Positions 1-4,386 of a DNA stretch of 5,326 nt are shown one piece after another. The stretch is taken from assembly GCA_017435025.1 (NCBI GenBank), contig JAFSFU010000157.1, forward strand, positions 1 to 5,326. The letters are read 5' to 3'. Each line of letters starts with the position of its first letter. Position 1 is the first letter of the stretch. A program made the translations under genes and the position numbers. The stretch is from Lachnospiraceae bacterium (lineage in GTDB: Bacteria; Bacillota_A; Clostridia; Lachnospirales; Lachnospiraceae). The notes beneath the pieces were generated by a model. It was not told the DNA's origin, did not search any database, and saw only the letters and a program-made list of their open reading frames with translations.

Positions 1-2155
1 CTTCGTTTGCAACGATCTGCATTGCGCGACCGCCAAGTACGAAGGACGGACGAACCAGTACCGGATAACCGATCTCAGCAGCGGCTGCAACACCATCTTC
101 AATCTTTGTTACCGCACGGCCTTTTGCACGCGGGATATCTAATTCATTCAGAAGGTTCTCGAATGCATTTCTGTCCTCTGCGCGATCGATTGCCTCGCAG
201 TCTGTACCGATGATCTTAACACCACGGTCTGCGAGCGGCTGTGCCAGGTTGATCGCTGTCTGTCCGCCGAGGGATGCGATAACGCCGTCCGGTTTCTCGA
301 ACTCGATGATGTTCATAACATCTTCGGTTGTTAACGGCTCGAAGTACAGTTTGTCAGCTGTTGTATAGTCTGTGGAAACTGTCTCCGGGTTGTTGTTGAT
401 GATGATCGCCTCGTAACCGGCTTTCTTGATCGTCATTACTGCATGTACAGTGGAGTAGTCGAACTCTACACCCTGACCGATACGGATCGGGCCTGCACCA
501 AGCACTACGATCTTCTTACGGTTTGTGAGGATGGATGTATTCTCACCTGTGTAAGAGGAGTAGAAGTACGGGATGTATGCGCCAGTATGGCATGTATCAA
601 CCATGCGGTATACCGGGAACATATTCTCGCTCTTACGAAGGTTGTAAACATCAACTTCCTTCCAGCCCCAGAGCTGGGAGATGAACTTGTCGCCGAAGCC
701 CATAACTTTGGCATTCTTTAATGTCTCAATATCGCCCGGATTTGCCTTTACTACTTCTTCCATCTTTACGATTCTCTCGATCGCCTCGAGGAAGTAGGAT
801 GTGATCTTTGTCACCTCATGCAGTTCAGCAACACTTACGCCTCTGCGGAGAAGCTCTGCAACAGCGAAGATGTTGTCATCCTGGAATGCATGCAGGTATT
901 CAAGGATCTCTTCGGTCGGTTTATGATCAAATTTTGCCATATGGAAGTGGCAAACACCAATTTCAAGGGAACGAACACCTTTGAGGAGACACTCTTCAAG
1001 AGTGGAACCGATGCCCATGATCTCACCGGTTGCCTTCATCTGTGTGCCCAGAGTATTGGCAGCGGATGTGAACTTATCGAACGGGAATCTCGGAAGTTTT
1101 GCGATTACATAGTCAAGGCTCGGCTCGAACGCTGCATTTGTATTTGCGATCGCAATCTCTTCCAGGCTCATACCAACAGCGATCTTCGCAGTTACACGAG
1201 CGATCGGGTAACCGGATGCCTTGGATGCAAGAGCGGAGGATCTGGAAACTCGCGGGTTAACCTCGATCAGGTAGTACTCGGATGTCTCCGGATTCAGAGC
1301 GAACTGTACGTTACAGCCACCTTCGATCTTAAGCTCACGGATCAGCTTGATAGCAGAATCGTTGAGCATCTTTTCGTCTTCTTTGGATAATGTCATGATC
1401 GGAGCCACAACCAGGGAGTCACCTGTGTGAACACCAACCGGATCGATATTCTCCATACCACAGATTGTGATCGCATGGTCATTGGAGTCACGCATTACTT
1501 CGAACTCGATCTCTTTGTAACCTTTTACGGATTTCTCAATGAGAACCTGGTGTACCGGAGAAAGCTTGAACGCGTTGAGACCAAGCTCAACAAGTTCTTC
1601 TTCATTGTATGCGAAGCCGCCGCCTGTACCGCCCAGTGTGAATGCCGGACGAAGTACTACCGGATAACCGATGCGCTTAGCTGCCTCTTTTGCCTCATCG
1701 ATGGAGTAAGTGATCTCAGACGGGATAACCGGCTCACCGATGGACTGGCACAGCTCTTTGAACAGCTCTCTGTCCTCTGCGCGCTCGATGGATTCGCTGG
1801 ATGTACCGAGAAGTTTTACACGGCACTCGCGAAGGATGCCCTTCTTCTCCAGCTGCATAGCCAGGTTCAAACCTGTCTGTCCGCCGATACCCGGTACGAT
1901 CGCATCCGGACGCTCGTAACGAATGATCTTTGCAATATATTCCAGTGTCAGCGGTTCCATATATACTTTATCAGCAATTACAGTATCTGTCATAATGGTA
2001 GCCGGGTTGGAATTACAAAGAACAACTTCATAACCCTCTTCCTTCAATGCAAGACACGCCTGTGTGCCTGCGTAGTCGAACTCAGCTGCCTGACCGATTA
2101 CGATAGGACCGGAGCCAATGATCAAAATCTTTTTAATGTCTGTACGCTTTGCCAT
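1..2155 (-). CDS. carB: Carbamoyl-phosphate synthase large subunit, N-terminal 718 codons (runs off left edge)
   Basis: This subunit makes carbamoyl phosphate from bicarbonate, two ATP and ammonia channelled from the glutaminase subunit CarA, feeding UMP and arginine synthesis in the cytoplasm. I translated the minus strand from the ATG at 2155 and found one uninterrupted frame to the window edge. It begins [20 protein letters not shown]. The first ATP-grasp unit (about 1-400) carries R129 in AEDR, R169 in [14 protein letters not shown]215, H243, Q284, E298 and N300 in [18 protein letters not shown]. These positions match E. coli CarB exactly or within one residue. An oligomerisation region (about 402-545) follows. 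The second ATP-grasp unit starts near 546 ([15 protein letters not shown], then R662 and R702 in VRPSFVLGG). The rest of that unit and the allosteric domain lie outside the window; E. coli CarB has about 1,070 residues. AGGAGG at 2164-2169 is 8 nt before the ATG. No carA ORF lies immediately upstream; instead there is a dedicated promoter and attenuator-like leader. Confidence 0.97.
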
Positions 2156-2205
2156 TTTCATTTCCTCCTATAATTACTCTTATGATAGTTTTCGGTGTTC
2201 TGCAT

Positions 2206-2249
2206 GGGCTTGGGAGACTACCATGAGACTGAAGTCCCTCTGTCTGCCC
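2206..2249 (-). other. Second hairpin in the carB leader, after the terminator
   Basis: Read on the minus strand, GGGC (2249-2246) can pair with GCCC (2209-2206). Inside it, GGGACT (2238-2233) can pair with AGTCtCCC (2219-2212), with one bulged T and an asymmetric internal loop of 7 and 2 nt. No U-run follows, so it is not a terminator. It starts directly after the U-tail of the attenuator and ends about 37 nt before the carB Shine-Dalgarno. It could stabilise read-through mRNA or bind a regulator. I compared it by eye with the PyrR-binding loop of Bacillus pyr leaders and could not make a convincing match. Its function is unknown. Confidence 0.4.
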
Positions 2250-2299
2250 AAAAAAAATCCCGATTTGTGAAATTGCAAATAAACATCACACAAATCAGG
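2250..2299 (-). terminator. Intrinsic terminator inside the carB leader (candidate attenuator)
   Basis: On the minus strand CCTGATTTGTG (2299-2289) pairs without mismatch, with one G-U, to CACAAATCGGG (2269-2259) across a 19-nt loop. This gives an 11-bp stem followed by A and eight T (2257-2250). Only the minus strand has the T-run, so it points towards carB. It lies about 95 nt upstream of the carB start and about 140 nt downstream of the predicted transcription start. The cold shock gene has its own stronger terminator further upstream, so this one most likely controls carB itself. The stem is AT-rich, and termination may therefore be partial and adjustable. The stop codon of the leader ORF lies in its 5' arm. 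Confidence 0.8.
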
Positions 2300-2408
2300 A
2301 AACAACACCATTCAATAAATCAATATGAAAAGAAATAACAGAGGAGATAAGAGAATTACTATTGCACTTATTGAAATCAGTTGTATTGAATTCCATCTGT
2401 GTAAACAT
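2295..2408 (-). CDS. Putative 37-residue leader peptide of carB
   Basis: The ORF starts at an ATG 9 nt after GGAGG (2422-2418), begins MFTQMEFNTTDFNK, ends LLNGVVS and stops with TGA at 2297-2295. It is rich in Ser and Asn, has no Arg, and resembles no family I know. Its interest is its position. The predicted transcription start (near 2436) is only about 14 nt before the Shine-Dalgarno, the second half crosses a U-rich tract, and the stop codon lies inside the 5' arm of the terminator. A ribosome near the stop would prevent that hairpin from forming. An overlapping ORF from the ATG at 2416 to a TGA at 2312 encodes a hydrophobic Ile/Leu-rich 34-residue peptide. Its ATG is only 1 nt from GGAGG, so I prefer the 2408 start. 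Short ORFs arise by chance, so expression is an inference. Confidence 0.5.
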   Translation of the reverse strand: MFTQMEFNTTDFNKCNSNSLISSVISFHIDLLNGVVS

Positions 2409-2442
2409 TCGCCCATTCCTCCATTCTTATGTTATCTGAGAT

Positions 2443-2471
2443 ATTTTATCGTGAATACAGGGCTTTGTCAA
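2443..2471 (-). promoter_or_regulatory. Sigma-A type promoter of carB
   Basis: A perfect -35 TTGACA (2471-2466) is separated by 17 nt from a -10 TAAAAT (2448-2443). This is one mismatch from the housekeeping consensus with ideal spacing. The stretch upstream of the -35 is A/T-rich. The predicted start of transcription is near 2436, which gives a carB leader of about 280 nt. The promoter lies downstream of the cold shock gene terminator, so carB has its own transcript. Confidence 0.85.
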
Positions 2472-2507: not shown

Positions 2508-2540
2508 AAAACAGCCGCACCGGAAAGGCCGGTACGGCTG
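2508..2540 (-). terminator. Intrinsic terminator of the cold shock gene
   Basis: On the minus strand CAGCCGTACCGG (2540-2529) pairs over 12 bp, with one G-U, to CCGGTGCGGCTG (2523-2512) around a 5-nt loop. It is followed by TTTT, C and ATTT. The stem is GC-rich and starts 23 nt after the cold shock stop codon. It insulates carB from the cold shock transcript. Confidence 0.9.
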
Positions 2541-2563
2541 CGAGTTCGTTCTTTAATTAAGAA

Positions 2564-2776
2564 TTAGCACTTAACAACGTTTACTGCACGAAGCTTTTTG
2601 CTGTTCTTCGGATCCTGCTCTGTCTCGAAAGTAACTTTCTGACCTTCTTCAAGAGTCTTGAAACCTTCGCCTACGATTGCGGAGAAGTGAACGAATACAT
2701 CGTCACCGCCGTTATCGTTGGAAATAAATCCGTAGCCTTTCTCAGAATTGAACCACTTAACTGTACCGTTATTCAT
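2564..2776 (-). CDS. csp: Cold shock protein, CspA/CspB family
   Basis: This 70-residue cytoplasmic protein is a single cold shock domain, a five-strand beta barrel that binds single-stranded RNA and DNA and acts as an RNA chaperone. It has the full family length. Visible signatures are the opening GTVKWFN (4-10), the RNP1 motif KGYGFI (13-18) and the RNP2 motif VFVHF (27-31), followed by the acidic mid-region and the usual end at the last beta strand. It terminates in KC, with one Cys at the last position. GGAGG at 2790-2786 is 9 nt before the ATG, which supports this start. It is transcribed alone from its own promoter with a leader of about 200 nt and ends at its own hairpin. Whether it is truly cold-induced or constitutively expressed cannot be read from the coding sequence; many members of the family are not cold-induced. 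Confidence 0.97.
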
Positions 2777-2973
2777 TACCTGGTACCTCCATAAATATAA
2801 ATTTGTTCCGTTAGAATGCCCTACAATAAATCCCCCTACATTTCTGCCGGACTAAATTTATTTGAATCTGAGTTTTCCCCTAATTCATGAAAAACCCACA
2901 TACCTCACCTGTTTCGTCGAATGTAACAATGACTTACGGTGTTGCATGTGAGTTCAATAGTGCATCGGAATAC
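2777..2973 (-). promoter_or_regulatory. Long 5' untranslated leader of the cold shock gene
   Basis: The predicted transcription start near 2973 leaves about 197 nt before the cold shock ATG. Long leaders of this kind are known to control cold shock genes, for example by temperature-dependent folding and stability in E. coli cspA. Here I see no enterobacterial cold-box motif, no terminator and no strong hairpin. A 21-codon ORF (2901-2836) lies within it but has a poorly spaced ribosome site. The regulatory role is inferred from the length and the gene family only. Confidence 0.45.
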
Positions 2974-3108: not shown

Positions 3109-4386
3109 TTATTTATCCTCGTATACAACCTGACCGCCGCAGATCGTATATTTTACACGACCATACAGCTCCGTTCCGATGAACGGTGTGTTGCAGGATT
3201 TGGACGCAATATCATTTTCTGTCACAGTCCAGCTCTCATTTTCGTCGAAGATCACAAGATCTGCATCTGCTCCCTCTGCCAGATAGCCCTTATCAAAGCG
3301 ATATAACTTCGCCGGGTTCAGACTCATCTTCTCCATCAGCTGCACCATAGTCAGATGACCTTGGCGAACCAGTTCTGTCACCGCGATCGCAAGCGCTGTC
3401 TCCAAACCGATGATTCCGCTTGGCGCCTTCCACACCGGCCGAACCGCCTTTTCCTCTGCACTGTGAGGTGCATGGTCCGTCGCGATCATATCGATCGAAC
3501 CATTCTTGATTCCCTCGATAATATCCTCGCGGTCCTTTGCTGTACGAAGCGGCGGATTCATCTTCGCCATCGCACCTTTTTCGAGCACAGCACTCTCATC
3601 GAGCGCAATGTGATGCGGAGTTACTTCCGCCCAGACATCTGCACCCAGCTCTTTCGCCAGTTTCACCATTTTTACTGCATTTTTAGAACTGATATGCTGA
3701 ATGTTCACGCTGGCACCGGTATGAAGCGCCAACATACAGTCACGTGCCACGAGAGCATCCTCAGCCAATGCCGGAGAACCATTGATTCCAAGAGCTTTTG
3801 CAGACGGTCCCGCATTGATTCCGTTTTCAGAGATGAATGCCGGATCCTCCTCGTGGAAGCTGAGCGGCACATCCAGCTCCTTCGCCTTAAGCATCGCAGT
3901 CTTCACCAGATTCTGGTCCATGATCGGAATACCGTCATCGGTAAACCCGGCTGCACCTGCTGCTTTCAGAGCCTCCATATCTACCAGTTCCTGTCCCTTC
4001 ATTCCAACAGTGATACATGCAGCTGGAAGCACGTTGATTCCGGTCTTCTTACCTTCCTCCAGAACATACTTCACAGTCTCCACATTATCCACCGGCGGTT
4101 TGGTATTGGCCATCGTCACAACGGTTGTAAAGCCGCCCTTTTTCGCCGCTGCCGCACCGGTCTGAATATCTTCTTTATAAGTAAGGCCCGGATCACGGAA
4201 ATGCACATGCACATCGATAAGACCAGGTGCCACTACCATGCCATCTGCATCAATGACCTGATTATATTCACCGGTCGATTCCACACAACCAATCGTTACA
4301 ATCTTTCCACCGTCAATTACAACGTCCTGTACCTGATCCAAACCGCTCTTCGGGTCGATCACGCGTCCGTTCTTAATTAAAATCAT
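3109..4386 (-). CDS. pyrC: Dihydroorotase, class I
   Basis: This is the third enzyme of de novo UMP synthesis. It cyclises N-carbamoyl-L-aspartate to L-dihydroorotate in the cytoplasm. The 425-residue length is normal for the class I (about 45 kDa) dihydroorotases of the amidohydrolase superfamily. The metal site is visible: H60 and H62 in DVHVHFRDPG, D150/D151 in GFTDDG, H178 in SFHEED, H231 in IQHIS, and the catalytic D304 in ATDHAPH. Substrate-loop features include R64, N94 in MANTKPP and MNPPLR (276-281). The bridging ligand looks like the Asp of Bacillus/Aquifex-type enzymes rather than the carboxylated Lys of E. coli PyrC. In this class activity can depend on association with aspartate transcarbamoylase; none is encoded here. 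GGAGG at 4398-4394 is 7 nt before the ATG. The gene is 77 nt downstream of the VOC gene with no convincing terminator or promoter between them, so it may be read through from upstream. Confidence 0.97.
   Translation of the reverse strand: MILIKNGRVIDPKSGLDQVQDVVIDGGKIVTIGCVESTGEYNQVIDADGMVVAPGLIDVHVHFRDPGLTYKEDIQTGAAAAKKGGFTTVVTMANTKPPVDNVETVKYVLEEGKKTGINVLPAACITVGMKGQELVDMEALKAAGAAGFTDDGIPIMDQNLVKTAMLKAKELDVPLSFHEEDPAFISENGINAGPSAKALGINGSPALAEDALVARDCMLALHTGASVNIQHISSKNAVKMVKLAKELGADVWAEVTPHHIALDESAVLEKGAMAKMNPPLRTAKDREDIIEGIKNGSIDMIATDHAPHSAEEKAVRPVWKAPSGIIGLETALAIAVTELVRQGHLTMVQLMEKMSLNPAKLYRFDKGYLAEGADADLVIFDENESWTVTENDIASKSCNTPFIGTELYGRVKYTICGGQVVYEDK

Follow-up and report, generated by a model that had tools for sequence, protein, structure and literature searches.

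The attenuator that precedes pyrBI in E. coli consists of a Shine-Dalgarno sequence, a leader open reading frame (ORF) that reaches the terminator, a U-rich stretch and a GC-rich hairpin followed by U8, all of which are shared by the DNA analysed here. In its leader pyrL, which we took from NC_000913.3 as a yardstick, the U-rich stretch comprises 9 T of 15 at nt 61-75, and the hairpin lies about 29 codons in. In Gram-positive bacteria, the PyrR-type attenuator (RF00515) likewise brings about pyrimidine-responsive premature termination before pyr genes. E. coli carAB, which encodes the same enzyme as the gene considered below, is also under UTP-sensitive pyrimidine control; this control is exerted at the promoter, by reiterative transcription and DNA-binding proteins, and to our knowledge carAB has no leader attenuator.

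We propose, with a probability of roughly 0.7, that the leader of carB in a Lachnospiraceae genome is a translation-coupled, UTP-responsive attenuator that works like that of E. coli pyrBI and is descended from an attenuator within the coding sequence of pyrC. The window, by which we mean the whole stretch of 5,326 nucleotides that was analysed (assembly GCA_017435025.1, contig JAFSFU010000157.1), has the gene order pyrC - cspA - leader - carB on its minus strand, with the following features:

2-2155, minus strand: carB of the pyr-operon type, running off the window; best named match L001, a locus titled Oscillospiraceae
2164-2169, minus strand: Shine-Dalgarno sequence AGGAGG of carB, 8 nt upstream of the start at 2155
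2249-2311, minus strand: putative remnant of pyrC, which in that gene's frame reads MVLFPDLCDVYLQFHKSGFFL against VFPGFCDVHVHFREPGFSYKE (blastn to intact pyrC, E 1e-4)
2250-2258, minus strand: AUUUUUUUU tail of the terminator (A2258, then T2257-2250)
2259-2299, minus strand: predicted intrinsic-terminator hairpin, arms 2299-2289 and 2269-2259
2295-2408, minus strand: leader ORF MFTQMEFNTTDFNKCNSNSLISSVISFHIDLLNGVVS, 37 codons, in the place of the pyrC 5′ end
2298-2340, minus strand: U-rich tract within the leader ORF, 25 T of 43, a candidate pause region
2418-2422, minus strand: Shine-Dalgarno sequence GGAGG of the leader ORF, 9 nt ahead of the ATG at 2408
2443-2471, minus strand: sigma-70-type promoter, TTGACA (2471-2466) - 17 nt - TAAAAT (2448-2443)
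2564-2776, minus strand: cspA-type cold-shock gene, upstream of the leader
3109-4386, minus strand: separate, intact pyrC of another type (that of the window's family), without the attenuator signature

A preliminary description of this DNA had listed the promoter, the Shine-Dalgarno sequence, the 37-codon ORF, the U tract, the stop codon in the hairpin and the AUUUUUUUU tail. We confirm this layout base by base, and a recount of the U tract at 2340-2298 gave the same 25 T in 43. The promoter matches the consensus at 11 of 12 positions and is the top one of 10 promoter-like matches in the window (mean of the shuffled window, 7.4). The arms of the hairpin pair without interruption over 11 bp, including one G-U pair, around an apical part of 19 nt, and the leader stop codon, TGA at 2297-2295, sits in the 5′ arm. 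The 63-nt stretch that holds the hairpin (2310-2248) folds at -19.2 kcal/mol versus a shuffled mean of -8.5 (z -4.9), a value equalled by 0 of 200 shuffles. Neither the part of the leader ahead of the hairpin (z 0.02) nor the spacer downstream of it (z 0.69) folds better than its shuffles, and the fold of the entire 297-nt leader is not unusual (z -1.0). On that z of 0.69, and because the sequences of relatives differ there, we dropped a hairpin between the terminator and carB. A leader fold pairing CUCCUCU with the leader Shine-Dalgarno sequence is likewise not supported (z about 0, and the complement is not seen in the genus relatives). A simple terminator scan of the window does not list the leader hairpin, probably because the loop limit of that scan is 8.

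From this layout we infer the following mechanism. At low UTP, RNA polymerase would be slowed in the U-rich tract, such that the ribosome on the leader ORF would catch up, reach the stop codon in the 5′ arm and block the hairpin, and carB would be transcribed. With ample UTP, the polymerase would outrun the ribosome, the hairpin would form and transcription would stop at the U-run. Compared with the PyrR-type attenuator, ribosome and U-rich RNA would here replace the protein. The coupling to translation is supported by the geometry of the leader. Runaway transcription in Clostridia is suspected from Bacillus subtilis, and the coupling could be weak if these Clostridia share it; the leader would provide a direct test of transcription-translation coupling in Clostridia. 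In E. coli, ribosomes block terminators close to stop codons, with a steep dependence on distance at pyrBI (excerpted text of PMC4824070), and a short distance between stop codon and terminator also serves as a proxy for runaway transcription (excerpted text of PMC7858274).

The leader is conserved in relatives. With CarB as the query, we collected the 80 nearest loci from named genomes, and genomes were also sampled by kinship. Among 200 genomes from the family of locus L011 (titled Lachnospiraceae), 107 gave DNA matches, mostly around the carB start, and a long leader match was found only in genome G058 (query 9-232, 65%). The genus of G058 comprises three genomes including G058 itself, in all of which the G058 leader region was matched. 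The corresponding loci L081, L113 and L114 carry a promoter in the same place, TTGACA - 17 nt - followed by TAAACT, TAGAAT and TAAACT, respectively. The leader Shine-Dalgarno sequence of L081 and L113 is that of the window in motif and spacing, and that of L114 is AGGAGG at 10 nt. Their leader ORFs, which begin with MYTQ (52 codons), MFTQ (51) and MFTL (47), contain 46-49% U and have their stop inside the hairpin; in L081, whose leader frame is ...AVFPGFCGVY*YFHKPGFF, the stop falls within the loop of the hairpin.

Together with the window and these three genus relatives, six of the 80 loci and two loci of an order-wide sample make up twelve leaders of this kind, which we call relic leaders. 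In eleven of them, an ORF of 28-52 codons with a Shine-Dalgarno sequence has its stop between -14 and +24 nt from the first base of the hairpin, and in L027, the sole exception, no clear leader ORF was found. The stop lies inside the hairpin in nine of the eleven, whereas E. coli pyrL (44 codons) runs through and past its terminator. A first ORF scan was filtered by stop position and a second one was run without that filter; other ORF candidates in the eleven are confined to L114, L009, L011 and L047, where they are 1-16 codons long and end at least 100 nt upstream, and to L115, which has an alternative start in the same frame. The fraction of T in the 45 nt ahead of the hairpin is 0.42-0.67 in ten of the twelve leaders, L027 (0.27) and L047 (0.31) not being U-rich at this place. 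The preliminary description had read the leader as a translation-coupled attenuator, pyrBI-like in logic, and the recurrence of leader ORF, stop at the hairpin and U-run in relatives supports this reading; the position of the ORF stop, which it had singled out for comparison, is kept at the hairpin in related leaders.

The hairpin itself has been retained as a paired structure. In the seven relic hairpins that align without gaps, 81.8% of the cells pair, versus at most 59.7% when the arms are slid, and 5 of the 11 pairs have changed on both sides, which was reached by 1 of 500 shuffles. This covariation count is limited to seven of the twelve because MAFFT gapped L115; the random-change and apical tests cover eight of the twelve, namely those of 41 nt. 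In these eight, the energy is below that of simulated random change at equal divergence (p 0.002-0.056), the divergence having been set by the observed distance to the nearest intact gene. Pair counts beat random change (p<0.05) in only three of the eight.

The likely origin of the leader can be read from its terminator. In an alignment, the hairpin of the window falls on the 5′ part of the pyrC coding sequence (PGFCDVHVHFREPGF), where the dihydroorotase signature FPGFCDVHVHFREPGFSYKE is encoded; the frame of the leader ORF at the hairpin is not the pyrC frame. Its apical part is identical to the consensus of intact pyrC at 14 of 19 positions, and since this part lies outside the 11-bp stem and 0 of 3000 shuffles were as good, a chance resemblance of the leader to pyrC can be rejected. 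By its sequence, then, the window leader looks like the remainder of a neighbouring pyrC gene that was lost. Several other relic leaders also match intact pyrC at the motif in blastn (L081, 5e-9; L009, 3e-12; L115, 2e-7; L004, 3e-5; L047, 4e-4), and L011 is pyrC-like only in the apical part (p 0.0003 to the consensus). L007, L027 and L128 have the leader architecture with undetectable pyrC similarity. The apical identities of L113 (9/19) and L114 (7/19) are not significant alone; these two loci by themselves show little pyrC similarity, and their descent rests on synteny within the genus. For the leaders of L007, L027, L128, L113, L114 and L011, descent from pyrC is argued from position and kinship.

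This probable origin distinguishes the leader from its E. coli counterpart. We saw no homology between the leader and pyrL on reading both, which is as far as the direct comparison went. Since the leader hairpin aligns to pyrC codons, its origin is separate from that of pyrL, and the likeness to pyrBI is one of working, not of descent. Unlike that of pyrBI, the terminator of this leader looks like pyrC coding sequence, and where relatives have kept pyrC intact, the enzyme gene itself takes the part of the leader ORF. Also, the element precedes carB or pyrC-carB, whereas the E. coli attenuator precedes pyrBI.

Among the 80 nearest carB loci, pyrC lies just upstream in 71 (some of which end at contig ends), a relic leader in six (L004, L007, L009, L011, L027, L047), and neither was in reach in three. 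The 68 loci of the order-wide sample (177 genomes) comprise 29 with pyrC-carB, 20 with pyrC about 1.1 kb further upstream, 17 without pyrC within 2.3 kb and the two relics L115 and L128. When 11 relic genomes were searched with the Oscillospiraceae PyrC of L001, 9 had a dihydroorotase at another place; the search missed G002 and G005, and the match in G006 has one internal stop.

If the window leader is a remnant, the genes that still are intact should be informative. Their catalytic DVHVHFREPG codons would double as the terminator hairpin, with pyrC itself as the leader ORF. From 116 loci with the motif we drew 99 distinct, long-enough pyrC genes (L174, without the motif, was dropped) and compared the 42-nt hairpin of each with 300 synonymous recodings that follow the gene's own codon use. 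The hairpin is more stable than expected, with a mean z of -2.33, p<=0.05 in 79 and z<0 in all 99. The 10 nt after the stem contain 6.77 T versus 4.99 expected and lie above expectation in 99 of 99 genes, and T at third positions in the 75 nt before the stem reaches 0.476 versus 0.204 in the gene body, being higher in 98 of 99; these counts are not independent because the genes are related. RNA-level constraint is thus present in intact pyrC.

A positional profile of 86 of the 99 genes, in which the hairpin begins a median of 40 codons past the predicted pyrC start (10th-90th percentile about 31-50), places the U enrichment more precisely. Third-position T starts from 0.23-0.26 at some 40-48 codons before the hairpin and reaches 0.53 and then 0.61 in the 12 codons that adjoin it; across hairpin and tail it is 0.42-0.55, and beyond them 0.14. 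The enrichment immediately ahead of the hairpin concerns U and not C: the latter, at third positions, is 0.24-0.28 from -30 to -7 and goes down to 0.15 in the last 6 codons. The U-rich tract of the window matches this rise. No comparable rise of U is seen at the carB start, and A-rich gene 5′ ends were rejected as a cause, as U goes up while A drops towards the pyrC hairpin. When terminator-like sites in coding sequence, on the coding strand, were ranked at 68 loci (2303 candidates), the pyrC site was the top one in 50; in 4 it took second or fourth place, and in 14 it was uncalled. In many gut Clostridia, intact pyrC thus probably carries, as far as sequence can tell, an intragenic pyrBI-like attenuator of which the window leader is a remnant. 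A search of open-access literature turned up no earlier description of an attenuator within the coding region of pyrC.

That the pyrC hairpin results from protein constraint alone can be rejected on the basis of the synonymous recoding and two control sets. Thirty pyrC genes of the window type, from the window's family, have a mean z of -0.55, 3.33 T in the tail versus 3.27 expected and an upstream third-position T of 0.225 versus 0.220; exceptions are L207, L214 and L215 (hairpin p<=0.05) and L195 and L199 (6 T in the tail). The pyrC of this type in the window itself has a hairpin z of -0.49 and 5 T in the tail versus 3.5 expected. A class-wide sample was collected through pyrC alone, from which we took 20 of the 29 matches at >=50% identity as kin and, as others, 20 from the more similar end of the remaining 62, of which L276 has no motif, leaving 19. 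The 20 kin show the signature (z -2.38, p<=0.05 in 16, at least 6 T in the tail in 19, third-position T 0.56 vs 0.28), and the 19 other dihydroorotases have z -0.30, p<=0.05 in one (L270), no tail with at least 6 T and third-position T of 0.30 vs 0.28. As a group, the 49 control dihydroorotases (30 + 19) carry no attenuator signature. Relocated pyrC genes of the kin type, in relic genomes and G127, are mixed: L226 has a strong hairpin (z -3.8) and a U-run, L223-L225 lack a strong hairpin but have parts of the signature. In the pyrC genes of other types, L227-L230, no signature was seen.

The signature also has a counterpart in the protein. Attenuator-bearing pyrC share 20% identity over the 35 residues that precede the motif (16% when shuffled) versus 66% over the 35 just after it, while in the controls the figures are 34% before (20% shuffled) and 52% after. 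The 20% vs 66% identity indicates that the PyrC N-terminus has largely lost protein-level constraint; thus freed, it would constitute the U-rich pause tract.

These observations suggest how a free-standing leader may arise. The ancestral state would be the intragenic attenuator of pyrC, a gene that most of the nearest relatives have immediately upstream of carB. Once pyrC had been replaced by a copy elsewhere, the gene would be lost except for its switch, which would remain as the leader of carB; in the window lineage, the rest of pyrC would have been lost and only the 5′ piece kept. More generally, we consider it fairly likely that many Oscillospirales possess a UTP-sensing, translation-coupled attenuator within pyrC and that on several occasions only the switch survived as a carB leader. 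On the carB tree described below, the relic-leader state requires 6 changes by parsimony, of which the starred branches force 2. If this is true, pyrBI-like control exists outside Gram-negatives, in lineages without detected PyrR; an attenuator lies in active-site codons, where RNA regulation visibly shapes protein sequence; and the birth of a leader-peptide attenuator, in which the enzyme gene dies and the switch stays, becomes traceable.

The leader geometry would suit any sensor of ribosome position, and Phe, Ser and Ile abound in the leader peptides. The attenuator might hence be coupled to translation and respond to something other than UTP, namely the overall translation rate or the supply of Phe, Ser or Ile tRNA, with a lagging ribosome letting the terminator form. 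We regard this as rather unlikely: the listed leaders have no single-codon run in common, and a need for amino acids leaves unexplained why U is enriched at the third positions of intact pyrC codons (0.61 over the last 6 before the hairpin vs 0.20 in the gene body).

That the leader looks derived from a dead gene would also fit a fixed partial terminator, i.e., a pyrC remnant that lowers carB expression by a constant factor, with the leader ORF being the decaying start of a pseudogene. A decaying start, however, would not be expected to stay open up to the hairpin behind a Shine-Dalgarno sequence in 11 of 12 leaders, never ending more than 14 nt before it, nor to retain its start, Shine-Dalgarno sequence and N-terminus across the genus. 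Moreover, intact pyrC is under the same constraint on U and hairpin, and a constant terminator within a gene makes little sense, so that we hold this explanation to be quite improbable.

A third explanation, which we consider very unlikely, is that the U tract and hairpin are the target of a protein (an antiterminator like PyrR or CspA, or Rho at the U-rich RNA), with the leader ORF being incidental. In its favour, cspA adjoins the leader in the window's genus, and T richness, beside excess C, is one of two features of Rho-terminated RNA in B. subtilis (excerpted text of PMC13323073). Against it, the window's cspA has no match (E<=1e-8) in the 80 nearest carB loci, on which ground CspA was also rejected as a co-regulator, and the three genus genomes yielded neither PyrR protein nor an RF00515 match. 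Third-position C shows no enrichment ahead of the hairpin, being down to 0.15 over the last 6 codons, and a hairpin with U-run is the design of an intrinsic terminator, for which Rho is not needed.

With respect to PyrR, the window has no match to the PyrR RNA element (RF00515) at E<=1, and G058, G210 and G211 have none at E<=0.1 among the first-look candidates that were scored (103/155, 77/77 and 103/136, respectively). The PyrR protein (NF003549) was not found in these three genomes, which are possibly incomplete. The preliminary description had suggested a departure from the usual Gram-positive control by PyrR; the lack of detected protein and RNA element in three of three genus genomes is in line with this and makes a PyrR-independent, pyrBI-like control plausible. 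Elsewhere, the PyrR protein is above the cut-off in 5 of 17 genomes (G006, G230, G387, G323, G365) and not in the other 12. The same five have the best RF00515 matches among 22 genomes (E 5e-6 to 5e-4), and the gathering score was reached in 0 of the 22 searched. Matches below this score stand before L118 (G387), L119 (G365) and L128 (G323), upstream of pyrC or of a relic leader. By eye, loops in L027, L058, L064, L070, L076, L125, L152 and L160 resemble what we take to be the PyrR consensus. In some relatives, CTTGCCG-type terminators and PyrR-like loops precede the coding-region attenuator or the relic leader, and tandem control by pyrimidines is possible there.

Upstream of the leader, a terminator-like site at 2541-2511 goes with the cspA-type gene. 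G210 and G211 share the order pyrC-cspA-leader-carB, and G058 has cspA-leader-carB. A search of the window with Rfam covariance models (E<=1) returned as its only match the cspA thermoregulator over cspA (2509-2797, minus strand), at 75.6 bits below the gathering score of 78; in L114 the same element scores 79.6, above the cut-off. A riboswitch in the leader was discarded, the leader having no Rfam match. In L007 (8215-8320) and L027 (8272-8372), ZMP/ZTP riboswitches lie shortly downstream of carB, before purine-like genes.

The carB of the window is 89% identical to that of L001 over the best segment and most likely starts at 2155, not at 2161, given the spacing of AGGAGG and the start of its relatives with MAKRTD. 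Three intact loci (L001, L008, L058) were read beyond carB; judged by their sequences, the genes that follow are presumably pyrK and pyrD, with pyrF, pyrE or pyrB further on. In a quick carB tree of 100 rows, in which 43 of 96 forks are open, L082 was entered twice, and five duplicate or shortened loci and most of L083-L110 were left out, the window's genus (support 99) falls inside a 15-row set with loci titled Oscillospiraceae (support 96). By family, the genomes of this genus go with a locus titled Lachnospiraceae, and the nesting of their carB among Oscillospiraceae-titled genes suggests transfer; judging from the tree, carB and its leader were probably acquired horizontally by the window lineage.

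The 330 nt upstream of carB in L082 (G127) hold a leader of the same architecture, with a U-rich ORF whose end lies shortly ahead of a strong hairpin and U7. By eye, this hairpin has no likeness to pyrC; a pyrBI-like leader of independent origin may stand before a diverged carB here. Many genomes of the order-wide sample have a carB with 62-70% similarity, as the sole or a second copy; its open frame is often long, at about 1350 codons, and may represent a fusion of CarA and CarB.
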